A stretch of DNA of 64,000 nucleotides from an uncultured Halobacteriovorax sp. GTDB lineage: Bacteria > Bdellovibrionota > Bacteriovoracia > Bacteriovoracales > Bacteriovoracaceae. Below the pieces are notes generated by a model. The model was not told the DNA's origin. It did no database searches and saw only the letters and a list, made by a program, of their open reading frames with translations. Position numbers and translations under genes: made by a program. The stretch spans positions 1 through 64,000 of the forward strand of contig CAJXVS010000003.1 in assembly GCA_913061265.1 (NCBI GenBank). The letters run 5' to 3'. Position 1 is the first letter of the stretch. Each line of letters starts with the position of its first letter. Of this stretch, positions 26,304-34,614 are shown piece by piece.

Positions 26304-27440
26304 TTACTCAAGAAGGTTTAATTCATCTTCCACGCTTGTCTCTTCCACAGAAGGCTTAGATCCGTCACAGAAACCAGTCGGCTCAGATTTTTCGATATAA
26401 TGTTTTTGAATAGTCACGCAATCGTCTAGCGATGCATACACATTCTTAGTTACACACTCAGGAACCTTAGAATTCTCCGTTGACCATTTTGTATTCTCTC
26501 GGCAAGTTAGATAACTAAACTTATCAACACAAGCCCAATGTTTTGCTACGCAATTATAAACAAGACCTCTACCGCTTCTTTCATAATTAGGAGGGGAGAT
26601 ATATTCAACCTTCTTTTCAATCATTGAGGCCATTGAGTTCTTTTCAGGGGTTTCAGTCATTCCAGCATCATCTCCAATCTTCATGTCCATACCAGTATCA
26701 ATCTCACCTACATCAGAGGCTTCTCCCATCGGCTTAATTTCTGCTAGAGGCTCTATCGTTGCAGCAGGTTCTGGAGTGACCGGAGCTTCTGCCACTGGAG
26801 TTGGATCTGCTTCTAGTTGCTCTAGAGGCTCTATGGTCTCAATTGGTTCAATTGGCTTAATAACTTCCACAGGAGTTTCTGGTGGTATGTCTACGACCTT
26901 AGGTTTCTCATCTAAGACATTTACCTCGGGAACCTCTGCTGGCTTTTCTACTGCAGTTGGTGCAGCAGGTTTCTTTCTAGGTTTTTTCCTTGCCCTCTTC
27001 TTTTTCTTAACGATTTTAACTGGCGCAGGAATCTCTTCTTCTTTTTGAGGATCTAAAAGGAGTACTCCTACTAAGGCCAAGGCTGCACCATAGATTAATA
27101 TTTTTTTTCTTTTCTTTGCAGCAGCGTCAGCGTCTTCATCTTCATCTTCATCGTCTTCATCGTCATAGTCTTCATCATCATCTTCACTATCTGAATAAAT
27201 CTTTTGAGTCTTCTCTTTAGTATCTGCACCAGTATCGCTTCCCTCTTTGAGAAGGTCTTTGATTTGAACTTTTACTGTTTTACCATCGTCATCTTCATCT
27301 TCATCGCCATGGTACTTTTCTTCATACTCATCATCATCTTCATACTCATCATCATCATCTTCAGACGAACTTCCACCAGGGAGCTTTTTACGGAGCTCCT
27401 CAATCGATGTTTTTAATTTTTTAATTAAGTCTTCAAACAT
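26304..27440 (-). CDS. Single-pass membrane protein with acidic cytoplasmic and Pro-rich outer part
   Basis: 378 residues. Residues 20-110 are extremely acidic (runs of D/E with SSEDDDDEYEDDDE). A basic patch KKRKK precedes one membrane helix ILIYGAALALVGVLLL (about 115-130). A Lys-rich then Pro/Glu/Val-rich stretch follows (about 135-270), resembling the periplasm-spanning linkers of TonB-like proteins, then a C-terminal domain with six cysteines (CVAKHWACVDKFSYLTC). Overall topology would be N-in, C-out. No known family. Start ATG has AGGTTATCAAA upstream. Confidence 0.8.
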   Translation of the reverse strand: MFEDLIKKLKTSIEELRKKLPGGSSSEDDDDEYEDDDEYEEKYHGDEDEDDDGKTVKVQIKDLLKEGSDTGADTKEKTQKIYSDSEDDDEDYDDEDDEDEDEDADAAAKKRKKILIYGAALALVGVLLLDPQKEEEIPAPVKIVKKKKRARKKPRKKPAAPTAVEKPAEVPEVNVLDEKPKVVDIPPETPVEVIKPIEPIETIEPLEQLEADPTPVAEAPVTPEPAATIEPLAEIKPMGEASDVGEIDTGMDMKIGDDAGMTETPEKNSMASMIEKKVEYISPPNYERSGRGLVYNCVAKHWACVDKFSYLTCRENTKWSTENSKVPECVTKNVYASLDDCVTIQKHYIEKSEPTGFCDGSKPSVEETSVEDELNLLE

Positions 27441-27580: not shown

Positions 27581-28660
27581 TTAGTCTTCTATAATTTTTG
27601 AAAAAACTGTTGGAAACTCACGTCCTTTAAGGCCTACGACACTCCACCAATCAATGACTTCTTTATAAAGTTTCTTAGTATCACTTGCTGTTACTAGCCA
27701 AAATTTTACGGGTGAATCTATAGGGGAAAGAGGAAAGATGCCATCTATTTCCTCTAGCTTATGACTAAGGTTTTTCAGGGTTGGAAATTTCTTAAGCCAA
27801 GATGATGGAGTTACTAAAAGAGCTGTTTCATTCGCAGGAGGACAGAGACGGCTTAGTTTTTTAATAATATGCCCCATCGTTTTTCGATAGTTGACTTCAC
27901 ATAGCCAATTCCAATCGTCACCAAATCTAAAACTGTCTATTTGAAGTTTAGATCTAGCTCCTCTTTTATAATACTCGCTTGCTATCTTCTCTAATTCTAA
28001 ACCGCCTCTTTTAGACTTTAAGAGAATTCCTCCTCTAAAGACGCCCTTTGAATCATTTAAATTTTTAATCTGAAAAGAAAGCTTGAACTTCCCCCCCGAT
28101 TCTTCAAATGTACTTCCTAAATCATAGTCTCGGTTTTTTTGATGTTTTTCAACAAGCAGAGAACTAGATTTCAGTAGTTTCTCTACTTGATTAAGGTTTT
28201 TATCAAAGTCTTCAATTCTATCTATGATTAGGTTTTTTCTTCCCGATCTTTCATAGGGAGTACGAATAAAGATCTCGTCATGCTTTTTTAGAAGGAGTTC
28301 AATTTCATTAACTTCCCTGACTTCTGTAGCGACAGAGGCATTTGAGTTTAGGAGGTTTGATATTTCAAGGGAGGTTAGTTTAGAATTAAGCTCTTTTTCT
28401 TTTTTTAAATTAGATAAGTCGCCCCACCAATTAAGAGCTTTCCCATTTTTTTTAGTTTGATTCTTAAATCCGGTAGCCTTCTTTATATACTCAAAATACT
28501 CTTCGCTATAATTCTTATTCGTTAGAAGACCTTCACTTTTATCGCTGCAATAAAAAAACAAGTGTTCGAATAACTCATTTACCTTAGGGTCAGTGCGGTT
28601 TTCAAAAAGGACTGATTCATAATCAAAGTTGGCCTTGAAGAGGCTCTTTATTTCTTCCAC
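27581..28660 (-). CDS. ATP-grasp-like protein
   Basis: 359 residues, GTG start overlapping the DUF455 gene by 13 bases. I recognise no close family, but the motif order matches an uncharacterised ATP-grasp group: EIFIRTPYERSGRKNLI (usual KAPWSSSGRG), LLVEKHQKNRDYDLGSTFE (usual VEPxxDKxxDF) and CEVNYRKTMGHIIKKL (usual EINLRMTMG, metal ligands). Such enzymes ligate a carboxylate to an amine or thiol using ATP. As the last gene of a unit with an SUV3-like helicase and a ferritin-like protein, its substrate is unknown. Confidence in the fold is moderate. Confidence 0.6.
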   Translation of the reverse strand: MEEIKSLFKANFDYESVLFENRTDPKVNELFEHLFFYCSDKSEGLLTNKNYSEEYFEYIKKATGFKNQTKKNGKALNWWGDLSNLKKEKELNSKLTSLEISNLLNSNASVATEVREVNEIELLLKKHDEIFIRTPYERSGRKNLIIDRIEDFDKNLNQVEKLLKSSSLLVEKHQKNRDYDLGSTFEESGGKFKLSFQIKNLNDSKGVFRGGILLKSKRGGLELEKIASEYYKRGARSKLQIDSFRFGDDWNWLCEVNYRKTMGHIIKKLSRLCPPANETALLVTPSSWLKKFPTLKNLSHKLEEIDGIFPLSPIDSPVKFWLVTASDTKKLYKEVIDWWSVVGLKGREFPTVFSKIIED

Positions 28661-29466
28661 TTTTTTCTACTTGTAACTAAGAAGTCATCTCGGTAATTAT
28701 CTAAAGAATCAATAAAGTCTTCACTAAAGCCTGCTCTGGCCCTGGCCTCTCTAGAGAAGATCATCCCCTTTGCTCTAGCGGGAGTAATCTTTTCAGGTAA
28801 TAAAGACTTATAATAATCCCATAAACTACCAGTAGGTTTCCACTGTTCTAACCAATGACGCCCAATTGATACATGAGAGATTTCATCTTCTAAAACTGTA
28901 TTAAGGATTGAACTCGTCTTTTCATCCCCAAGAGATTCAAAGATTTCTTTATAATGAATACAGAAATCAAGATTCGCCATCTCAAAGGTAAGAGACATCA
29001 TGGAAAAGAATTCACTTGGGGTCTTTAAATCAGGCATTTGTTTCCAAAAGAAATCATTGACCGGAAAATCACCAAAATCGGATCCGAGTTCATTGATTCT
29101 ACCAACGTAAAGCTTAAAATGTTTTTGTTCATCCCTTAAAGCGGATACAATTCCCTTTTTAAACTTCTTATCCTCTTCAGTTATAGTCGGATAGCAATAA
29201 AGAGCAGCTGCCATCATCTCTATCGCTAATAATTCATGATTAGCAAAGAAGTGAAGCGCCAAGGCTTTATTGGAGTCATTATTTAAGGTATTTCTTTTAG
29301 GGAATTTACCTTGCTTTTCACTGAACTGAATTTCATTTGATCGGCTAGGAGTCAAAGGAATATCTCTACCCTCAAATTCATCAAAGACAAGATCATTGCA
29401 GTTAAAAAGTTTAGAATCTAAACTGCTACCTAAAAGAATCTCTTTACTAAAGTCGCTAGCTTTCAT
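28648..29466 (-). CDS. DUF455 ferritin-like protein
   Basis: About 272 residues, ATG at 29466 just after the helicase stop (a GTG at 29469 is also possible). The helical region holds the di-iron type ligands in HFFANHELLAIEMMAAALY, SALRDEQKHFKLY, TFEMANLDFCIHYKEIF and LEDEISHVSIGRHW, the pattern of the DUF455 family, related to ferritin-like oxidases such as MiaE. It likely binds two metal ions and performs an oxidation or hydroxylation in the cytoplasm; the substrate is unknown. It is overlapped on both sides in the helicase/DUF455/ATP-grasp unit. Confidence 0.82.
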   Translation of the reverse strand: MKASDFSKEILLGSSLDSKLFNCNDLVFDEFEGRDIPLTPSRSNEIQFSEKQGKFPKRNTLNNDSNKALALHFFANHELLAIEMMAAALYCYPTITEEDKKFKKGIVSALRDEQKHFKLYVGRINELGSDFGDFPVNDFFWKQMPDLKTPSEFFSMMSLTFEMANLDFCIHYKEIFESLGDEKTSSILNTVLEDEISHVSIGRHWLEQWKPTGSLWDYYKSLLPEKITPARAKGMIFSREARARAGFSEDFIDSLDNYRDDFLVTSRKKWKK

Positions 29467-29468
29467 CA

Positions 29469-32114
29469 CTAGCGCTTATTGAATTTTCTTTTTCTAGATT
29501 TCTTCTTTGCATTACCATCTTTCGTCCCTGGTGTCTGCTTACCTGGTCTTGAGCCTCTTCTTCCTGCTCCAGATCCAGCTTTTCCGCCTCCACTTCTACC
29601 TCGAGAAGATCCACCATAACGACGCTGCTTAAAGCAAGCCTCGCAAATAGCAAACTTTGAATTCTCTTCAATTTTTTGTCCACAGCTTGAACAAGTTGGA
29701 ACAATCTTATTTGAAAGAAGTAGATTTAGTTTCTCTACAGCAAGAGCCTTATTGGCATGGAGAACTTCGTCATCAAAGCTAAAGTTCTTATTATCAAAGT
29801 GCCTAGCAAGCCATTGGTATAGCTCCACACATTTAATCGTTGTCTCTAGATAATCAATATCATCTGAGTTCGGATCAATGGGATCAAAGAAGATCGGATC
29901 ATTATTTACGTATTTATTTAAGATCCAAACAAAGTATTGAACATGCTCCAAGAGCCCTTGGTTTACAGGAGCGCAAGTAAAGCCGAATATTTCTGAGGAG
30001 CTTAATACTTCTTCAGAATTTGCTTCTTCAACTATTTCAGCTAGATCAATCATTTCCCCAAGCTCTACGCAAAAGAAAGGTTTCTTAAACTGCATAGTAT
30101 TAAAGAGCCTAAGAAACTCAGAGAGCCTAAGCATTGGAAGGCTATTATCTTCTAGCGCCTTATTCACTTGGCTAAAGATATCTAAATCGGGACCAACCAT
30201 ACATTTCTTTTTTTGATCAAGAATAGCACCAATGGCCTCTTCAATCTGATCAATCCCATCCTCAACTCGAGTTAGGCAAGAAACAAAGCCAACAGGAAAA
30301 CGTTGATAGCGCCCAGCTCGACCAGCGATTTGCTTAATCTCACTAGCACTAATGACATGCTCTTGATTATTAAAAAACTTTGAAAGTGTAGAGAAGATAA
30401 TCCTTTTAATAGGAAGGTTCATCCCCATAGCAATAGCATCGGTACTTACTAAAATATCTGTTTCACCTTGATCAAATTTACGGGCCTGCTCTCTTCTCAC
30501 TTCTGGAGATAGCCTTCCGTAGACGATACTGACTTTAAAATTTAGCCGTTCTAGATCCATTTTATATTTAAGCGCCTGCCTTCTTGAAAAAACAATTAGT
30601 GCATCAGAGCGGTCTAGGTTTCCTAGAGTGATGGGTTTCTTCTCTACATTAAGCTCAGTCATTCTTTCGTAGTTCTTAATCTCCATTTCATCGCCGCACA
30701 TTTCGACGATCATTTTGACCAATTCTAGAACTGATGGATCACCACAGATATGAACTTCATCCGCTGAGATATTAACCAGGGCCCTTGTCCAAGCCCAGCC
30801 TCTTTGAGGATCAGTGATCATTTGAATTTCATCAATAACACAGCAATCAAAATGTTCTTGAAGCCGTGCCATTTCAATCGTTGACGAATAATGGGTCGAG
30901 CCTTCAATCTCGATAACTTCTTCACCTGTAAGAAGCGTTGTGACCGCGCCTTTTTGATTCATAGTATCGTATAATTCAGCCGCAAGAAGTCTTAGGGGTG
31001 CTAAGTAGCAACCAGTATGAACTTCACAAAGCCTTTGGATTGCATGATAGGTCTTACCCGAGTTAGTAGGCCCCATATGATAGACGATCTTTCTCTTAAT
31101 CTTTCTCGCTTGAGAGTGAACCCAAAATTCTCCTAGGTATTCTTGAAGAATTGTTCCCGAGATATCTTTTCTTTTTAAAAGAAGGAGAGATTTAACCATC
31201 TTATTAAACTCTCGCCCAATATAATGTTCGTTTCTCCAGATATTAGTTTTTATCTGATTAAAGAATCTTTTGTATTCACTTTCTTCGATGATTTCAGGAC
31301 TAAGCTCTTGTTCTTCAAGCATCCTAATAAGGATTGGCTTAATAACAACTTCTCGTCTTTTAGCCAACTCAGATGGATAAGTGAATTTATCTCTTACAAT
31401 CGATTTCACCTGACTATCTAGTCTATTGATCGTCGATCTCTTAAGCCTTGTTCTAACTTTATGAAAGATCCTATCGAGTTTTTTCTGGAGCTCACGATAG
31501 GTATCATTTACATCTTCAACACCTTCATCAAGAAGAGAAGACATCTCAGCTTCAATACCAGAGATAACTTCTTTACAGTCTTCAAAGACTTTATCTCTTG
31601 TAAAGGCCCTATAATCCGCCACACATTTTACACAATGGCAGTTCATCTCTGACATTTTTAAATCAATATCAAAATTTTCTTTTAAGTTTGTTTGGGTCTT
31701 AGTGTGATCGCCTTCGGTTACTTCACACCACTCATCAATACTTTTAATATGAAGCTTGAAGAACTCAGGGCTAAGGCCCCCATCTTGTCCAAAGTAGAAC
31801 ATTTCCTTTTCTGGAAATAAACAATCATCTAAGAAGATAAGATCTAATACAAAGTCTCTATTAATAAATTCCAGGTATGAAATATAATCTTTATTGAATT
31901 TACTAGTTAAGGAAGGATATTCTTTTAAGAACTTATCAAGCTTCGTTTGAATCTCTTCAACTAAGTCTAAAACAAGACCCGCATCCTCAACAGAACGAAC
32001 GTACTCGTCTTCTTCTGAGAATTTATTAATTTTAATAATGGTCCGCCGTTCTGATTCTAGTAAATCGCGGATGGCGGCAAAATCAGGGATTTCCTGAAGG
32101 GATTCTGTACCCAA
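29469..32114 (-). CDS. SUV3-like DExH helicase with zinc ribbon and RG tail
   Basis: 881 residues. Residues 1-350 are an unassigned helical N-terminus with a CHCVKC motif. The helicase core has Walker A GPTNSGKTYHA (about 358), DEIQM as motif II, GDPSVLE, the SUV3-type LIVFSRRQAL and QIAGRAGRYQ as motif VI. The C-terminus holds a CSSCG...CEAC zinc ribbon and a Gly/Arg/Lys-rich tail (GGSSRGRSGGGKAGSG), suited to RNA binding. SUV3 is the RNA-degradosome helicase of mitochondria; relatives occur in some bacteria. A role in RNA unwinding or decay is inferred. The start is TTG (32114), the only one after an in-frame TGA. Confidence 0.88.
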   Translation of the reverse strand: MGTESLQEIPDFAAIRDLLESERRTIIKINKFSEEDEYVRSVEDAGLVLDLVEEIQTKLDKFLKEYPSLTSKFNKDYISYLEFINRDFVLDLIFLDDCLFPEKEMFYFGQDGGLSPEFFKLHIKSIDEWCEVTEGDHTKTQTNLKENFDIDLKMSEMNCHCVKCVADYRAFTRDKVFEDCKEVISGIEAEMSSLLDEGVEDVNDTYRELQKKLDRIFHKVRTRLKRSTINRLDSQVKSIVRDKFTYPSELAKRREVVIKPILIRMLEEQELSPEIIEESEYKRFFNQIKTNIWRNEHYIGREFNKMVKSLLLLKRKDISGTILQEYLGEFWVHSQARKIKRKIVYHMGPTNSGKTYHAIQRLCEVHTGCYLAPLRLLAAELYDTMNQKGAVTTLLTGEEVIEIEGSTHYSSTIEMARLQEHFDCCVIDEIQMITDPQRGWAWTRALVNISADEVHICGDPSVLELVKMIVEMCGDEMEIKNYERMTELNVEKKPITLGNLDRSDALIVFSRRQALKYKMDLERLNFKVSIVYGRLSPEVRREQARKFDQGETDILVSTDAIAMGMNLPIKRIIFSTLSKFFNNQEHVISASEIKQIAGRAGRYQRFPVGFVSCLTRVEDGIDQIEEAIGAILDQKKKCMVGPDLDIFSQVNKALEDNSLPMLRLSEFLRLFNTMQFKKPFFCVELGEMIDLAEIVEEANSEEVLSSSEIFGFTCAPVNQGLLEHVQYFVWILNKYVNNDPIFFDPIDPNSDDIDYLETTIKCVELYQWLARHFDNKNFSFDDEVLHANKALAVEKLNLLLSNKIVPTCSSCGQKIEENSKFAICEACFKQRRYGGSSRGRSGGGKAGSGAGRRGSRPGKQTPGTKDGNAKKKSRKRKFNKR

Positions 32115-33624: not shown

Positions 33625-34614
33625 ATGATTGATACATGGTTGACTAAAACGTTTAACATTAAATACCCCATCATAATGGCGCCAATGTTTTTGGTTTCAA
33701 ATATAGAAATGACAATTGCAGCAGCGGAATCTGGAATCACTGGATGTATTCCTGCCCTCAATTATAGGACCGCAGAAGAGTTCGAAGCGGCCTTAAAAGA
33801 GCTTAAAGAAAAATGTCCTGGAGCTTTTGGAATCAACCTTATTGTAAATAAGAGTAATGTTCTTTTAGAGAAACAAATCGCTCTTTGTGAAAAATATCTT
33901 CCTGACTATATTATCACTTCTCTTGGTTCTCCAAAGGACGTTATTAAGCGTTGTGGATCAAAAGGTGTGAAGGTTATTTGTGATGTTGTAGATATTGAAT
34001 ATGCGATTAAGTGCCAAGAGCTAGGAGCTGATGCTGTTATCGCGGTTAACTCTGGTGCCGGCGGGCATGCTGGTCCGACACCAGCTTCAATCTTAGTTCC
34101 AATGTTAAAAAAGAATTGTTCGATTCCCGTTATTTCTGCTGGTGGAGTTGGAACAGGAGCCGGTCTCTTATCTGTTCTTGCCCTAGGATCAGAAGGTGTA
34201 AGTATGGGTAGCCCCTTTATTGCTACTACCGAAGCTCCTGTAACTCAAGAATATAAGCAGGCCATTGTTGATTACGGCGCAAAAGATATTGCCCTAACGA
34301 CAAAACTCTCTGGCACTCCTTGTACCGTTATTAAAACTCCTTATGTAGAAGAGATCGGACTTGACCAAAATCCAATTGAGAAGTTATTAAATAAAAATAA
34401 GAAGATTAAGAAATATGTAAAGATGCTTACCTTCTATAAAGGAATGAAGCTCTTAGAAAAAGCTGCTATGGGCGCAACTTACAAGAGCGTTTGGTGTGCT
34501 GGTCCTTCAATCGAGTTTGTTAATAAGATTGAACCTACTAAGGTTATTGTAGATAGAATAATGGCTGAGTACTCGGAGGCATTGACCCGTCTAGGGTCAT
34601 TAAAAGATGCCTAA
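33625..34614 (+). CDS. Nitronate monooxygenase / FabK-like flavoprotein
   Basis: 329 residues, TIM-barrel FMN family. IMAPMFLVSN at the start, GINLIVNKSN, the catalytic-type histidine in NSGAGGHAGPTP, and phosphate-binding SAGGVGTG and ALGSEGVSMGSPF identify the 2-nitropropane dioxygenase family. Some members are enoyl-ACP reductases (FabK), so either alkyl-nitronate oxidation or fatty-acid synthesis is possible. Start ATG follows AAGTATAAGGACACTCAG. Possible operators sit just upstream (33544-33579). It overlaps the MFS gene by 8 bases. Confidence 0.87.
   Translation: MIDTWLTKTFNIKYPIIMAPMFLVSNIEMTIAAAESGITGCIPALNYRTAEEFEAALKELKEKCPGAFGINLIVNKSNVLLEKQIALCEKYLPDYIITSLGSPKDVIKRCGSKGVKVICDVVDIEYAIKCQELGADAVIAVNSGAGGHAGPTPASILVPMLKKNCSIPVISAGGVGTGAGLLSVLALGSEGVSMGSPFIATTEAPVTQEYKQAIVDYGAKDIALTTKLSGTPCTVIKTPYVEEIGLDQNPIEKLLNKNKKIKKYVKMLTFYKGMKLLEKAAMGATYKSVWCAGPSIEFVNKIEPTKVIVDRIMAEYSEALTRLGSLKDA

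Follow-up and report, generated by a model that had tools for sequence, protein, structure and literature searches.

A DUF455 ferritin-like protein and a predicted ATP-grasp ligase, encoded in overlapping frames in one bacterial family and as a single protein in several phyla

Our analysis indicates that a DUF455 ferritin-like protein and a predicted ATP-grasp ligase, encoded in overlapping frames in the window (the whole stretch of 64,000 nucleotides analysed here), very probably constitute a functional unit to which the adjacent SUV3-like helicase does not belong. In other families and phyla the two proteins are found as one polypeptide. On balance, we think that the unit probably joins an oxygen-dependent diiron oxidase to an amino-acid or peptide ligase, both acting on the same molecule. 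The three genes all lie on the minus strand, and their ends abut or overlap according to the list of open reading frames and the sequence:

29469-32114, minus strand: SUV3-like RNA helicase (PF22527 DEXQc_Suv3, E=2e-63); the TTG start given by the ORF finder is a predicted start only
28651-29466, minus strand: DUF455 ferritin-like protein of 272 aa, with ATG at 29466 and a stop ending at 28648 (PF04305, E=7e-51)
28648-28660, minus strand: 13 bases shared by the end of the DUF455 frame and the beginning of the ATP-grasp frame (from the sequence)
27581-28660, minus strand: predicted ATP-grasp ligase of 358 aa (placed at 27584-28657) with a GTG start and its own pre-ATP-grasp region (AlphaFold and Foldseek)

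In the window the helicase stop is immediately followed by the DUF455 frame, and the overlap at the other end of this frame likely results in translational coupling of DUF455 and ATP-grasp. The overlapping and abutting ends recorded in the first-pass annotation are real, and the gene order is kept in relatives, which argues that the arrangement is not due to chance.

The two genes of the pair are distributed together in our family sample of 70 genomes, some of them incomplete: both are present in 52 genomes and neither in 16, and two genomes are discordant (Fisher p about 1e-13, with relatedness ignored). In one discordant genome (G009) DUF455 is represented by no more than a 140-residue fragment, and the other (G037) has a carbamoyltransferase-linked paralogue of the ATP-grasp. 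In 21 of 23 family loci the two frames of the pair overlap, by 1-32 bases. The helicase, on the other hand, is present in 68 of the 70 genomes, including 15 of the 16 with neither DUF455 nor ATP-grasp; where the pair is missing, the next gene after SUV3 is often the one found on the far side of the pair in the window, and on the helicase tree the presence and absence of the pair requires at least two changes. Helicase and pair are close or overlapping in 16 of 22 family loci, and a gap of 0.8-1.6 kb separates them in the other 6. Unrelated neighbours are almost as constant in position as the helicase (of 23 loci, 21 keep the gene downstream of the pair, 18 an HD-GYP gene, 18 a nitronate monooxygenase and 17 an M28 peptidase, with some of these loci ending early at contig ends), so that adjacency of the helicase carries little weight. 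For these reasons we abandoned the trio as one unit: its order is conserved in the family, as had been proposed for checking, but the helicase also occurs without the pair and is a widely conserved neighbour that probably takes no part.

Two of these neighbours deserve mention in their own right. The nitronate monooxygenase-like gene (window 33625-34614) is found close to the pair in 18 of 23 loci, against none of 9 pair-less loci. A genome-wide search nevertheless recovered homologues with 55-56% identity in two pair-less genomes (G018 and G041), and only distant homologues in several pair-bearing ones, and this inconsistent co-occurrence led us to reject it as a partner. The gene downstream of the pair (window 26304-27440) encodes an acidic low-complexity protein that may have a membrane segment and whose C-terminal part, which contains cysteine, is conserved.

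In no fewer than seven further families of the phylum, DUF455 and ATP-grasp share one open frame of 601-803 aa, and the fused protein is also found in Verrucomicrobiota, Gemmatimonadota, Latescibacterota and Myxococcota. When a genome collection was scanned, in which 434 candidates encode some relative of the fused query, at least 80 loci matched nearly the whole query; the matches listed are mostly from Verrucomicrobiota and also include Latescibacterota, Gemmatimonadota, Bdellovibrionota and Myxococcota. The split ATP-grasp protein can be aligned over its whole length with the C-terminal half of its fused counterpart (E=7e-26, 298 columns). The fused gene was single-copy in the seven genomes checked and occurred in 3 of 145 genomes sampled from the phylum to which one Verrucomicrobiota genome belongs, and its distribution outside the family looks patchy. 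SUV3 was absent from all four fused-type genomes searched. The pairing, and its fusion in several phyla, provides a concrete biochemical hypothesis for this clade of DUF455 proteins, and the fused form, as a self-contained single-gene enzyme, is open to direct in vitro study. One metagenome-assembled contig with a fused gene (L114) is titled Klebsiella pneumoniae; in the DUF455 tree the gene groups among Verrucomicrobiota-type sequences, and the label is probably wrong.

Assignment of the first member of the pair is straightforward: PF04305 is matched at 173.7 bits against a cut-off of 34.3. The residues E78, E113, H116, E162, E195 and H198 follow the pattern E, ExxH, E, ExxH (E78, E113xxH116, E162, E195xxH198), and are invariant in 11 family members as well as in the fused homologues. 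In the model of the fused protein (pLDDT 88.5, pTM 0.87) their counterparts lie in four long helices. These six residues are the predicted diiron ligands, and retention of the full set agrees with the earlier description of the protein as a putative di-iron oxidase. Weak profile similarity to aldehyde deformylating oxygenase and COQ7 (E about 0.01-0.4) is located mainly around the last E..H motif. Both are ferritin-like diiron oxygenases with the ligand pattern E, ExxH, E, ExxH; their substrates differ from those to be expected for the DUF455 pair, and we know of no ATP-grasp partner for either. A relationship to MiaE-like proteins had also been suggested: DUF455 and MiaE both belong to the ferritin superfamily, but no MiaE family was matched in Pfam at E<=1, and we found no link to tRNA.

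Ordinary DUF455 proteins (PF04305, COG2833-type) belong to the same Pfam family and are of similar size, about 260-300 aa. In the DUF455 tree, however, the paired proteins form a clade apart from them (SH-aLRT 100), and this clade divides, with moderate support, into fused and split forms. In most genomes with an ordinary DUF455, no partner ATP-grasp of the pair's family was found. No DUF455 relative was found in the viral contigs searched. The literature, searched mostly outside subscription journals, contains only passing mentions of DUF455 and COG2833, and as far as this search reached the family is without known function.

The second member of the pair is less easily recognized. As a single sequence it gave no Pfam match above the cut-off, no NCBIfam match and no PDB match, and a family profile built from 30 homologues found PurK as its best PDB sequence match, a weak one (E=8e-5). 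The AlphaFold model (pLDDT 94.5) has an ATP-grasp fold, and a Foldseek search with it gave PDB matches in the hundreds. ATP-grasp enzymes head the list (best E=5e-14, TM about 0.7), with peptide and amino-acid ligases as the closest folds: a Streptomyces peptide ligase (8ynd), 3wvq, SAOUHSC_02373 (7r8q), BesA (8yi6) and the L-amino-acid ligase 3vot. The structural neighbours further include PurK and biotin carboxylase. The search with the fused model was again led by amino-acid and peptide ligases, and weak sequence matches connect the ATP-grasp unit with the Asp-Met ligase LdmS. The positions K/R132, D241, E/D254, N256 and R258 are kept in 30 of 30 homologues; we take K/R132 to be the ATP lysine/arginine and the acidic residue to bind metal, together with an E-x-N motif. 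The predicted structure thus identifies the third gene product as an ATP-grasp enzyme, and both the earlier assignment and the structural check proposed for it are upheld by the fold and the conserved catalytic residues. It shares the ATP-grasp fold and the pre-ATP-grasp region with 8ynd, 3wvq, SAOUHSC_02373/LdmS (7r8q), BesA and 3vot, but at only about 10-14% identity (about 9-14% to any solved structure), and no Pfam family matches it. For none of these ligases do we know of a fusion with a diiron domain. The protein represents a new ATP-grasp family, which extends the group beyond present Pfam coverage.

Paralogues of the ATP-grasp protein occur in other surroundings. In G037 one is fused to a NodU/TobZ-type carbamoyltransferase (L039:9335-11974), apart from any DUF455, and in G044 another lies directly beside such a carbamoyltransferase (L038:9631-12278), with an adjoining glycosyltransferase and no DUF455 near. 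These associations fit small-molecule chemistry.

As read from their sequences, the catalytic residues of DUF455 and ATP-grasp are complete, and a mechanism may be sketched for the oxidase-ligase combination that we favour. The ATP-grasp half would activate a carboxylate with ATP, by way of an acyl-phosphate, and couple it with an amine, in the manner of amino-acid and peptide ligases. The ferritin-like half, with its diiron centre and oxygen, would oxidise the substrate or the ligated product (by hydroxylation, desaturation or cleavage), and the product of one half would be passed to the other. We infer the diiron occupancy, the use of oxygen, the amide chemistry, the amino-acid-type substrate and the order of the steps. 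The permanent pairing suggests such a hand-over between the halves; alternatively, the fusion may mean only shared regulation. More tentatively, the fused proteins could represent a hitherto undescribed bifunctional family of several phyla, in which ATP-dependent ligation and diiron oxygen chemistry on one polypeptide yield a new oxidised amino-acid conjugate from common metabolites by means of a single gene.

A precedent for the combination of activities is the mangotoxin pathway, in which the diiron heme-oxygenase-like oxidase MboA works with the ATP-grasp amino-acid ligases MboC/MboD; 1447 heme-oxygenase-like diiron oxidases have been reported near ATP-grasp genes (PMC13185094). In both cases a non-heme diiron oxidase is encoded together with an ATP-grasp ligase. 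The present pair differs in its ferritin-like DUF455 scaffold, its one ligase, its fused or overlapping frames and the lack of a surrounding biosynthetic cluster. The DUF455/ATP-grasp pairing itself was not found in the literature, again searched mostly outside subscription journals; the earlier view that the set is undescribed as a unit holds for these two genes, and the helicase is not supported as a member.

Other readings of the pair have to be weighed against an oxidase and ligase sharing a substrate. It is conceivable, if unlikely, that the target is a protein or peptide, to which the ATP-grasp half would attach an amino acid, or which it would crosslink, while the diiron domain hydroxylates the same target, comparable to the modification of EF-P. 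That the closest folds include ligases acting on peptides is consistent with this, as is the stand-alone context of a single gene, which would suit a target encoded elsewhere; yet no recurring precursor peptide or target gene lies alongside, and the patchy occurrence outside the family argues against it. We consider it rather improbable that, next to the oxidase, the ATP-grasp half works as a kinase or carboxylase of a small metabolite, with no amide being formed: the sequence match of the profile to PurK and the presence of PurK and biotin carboxylases in the structural search point this way, but the top structural matches, with higher TM-scores, are amino-acid and peptide ligases.

The helicase itself is assigned from its sequence. 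Its DEXQc_Suv3 domain scores 212.9 bits in Pfam against a cut-off of 27, Helicase_C is matched at E=6e-15, and among solved structures Suv3/SUPV3L1 come closest (E down to 2e-75). The SUV3 C-terminal domain PF12513 remains below its cut-off (16.5 bits against 27), and we therefore call the protein SUV3-like. A CSSC...CEAC arrangement (CxxC...CxxC) near the C-terminus precedes a tail rich in RG and K. The RNA helicase and the RG tail of the first description are thereby confirmed, and the zinc ribbon, for which Pfam matches are below cut-off, is indicated by the cysteine motif. In PADLOC, the matches of the helicase are confined to its C-terminal helicase domain and to helicase models from other systems, and there is no match for DUF455, ATP-grasp or the fused protein, so that a link to defence was dropped.

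The RNA modification or processing pathway originally suggested for all three genes, in which the helicase would unwind RNA, DUF455 would hydroxylate a tRNA base like MiaE and ATP-grasp would add an amino acid to RNA, is very improbable: the adjacency of the trio, the RNA-type family of the helicase and the occurrence of some fused genes near ABC-F, YebC or DeaD speak for it, but the helicase is found in nearly all pair-less family genomes and is missing from the four fused-type genomes searched, it stands apart from the pair in several loci, unrelated neighbours keep the order equally well, and DUF455 lacks a MiaE match.

No partner gene stays with the fused gene across phyla, and its surroundings give no hint of a substrate. 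The ABC-F, YebC, DeaD and enolase-like neighbours each occur in no more than about 10% of the fused-gene loci, and were discarded as partners on this account. In several genomes of family f12, MoxR-type AAA and CoxE-like VWA genes lie upstream of the fused gene (L033:7861-9635; also L034, L035, L055, L056 and L057). As they are confined mainly to one genus group we do not regard them as general partners; MoxR/VWA pairs can help metalloenzymes mature.
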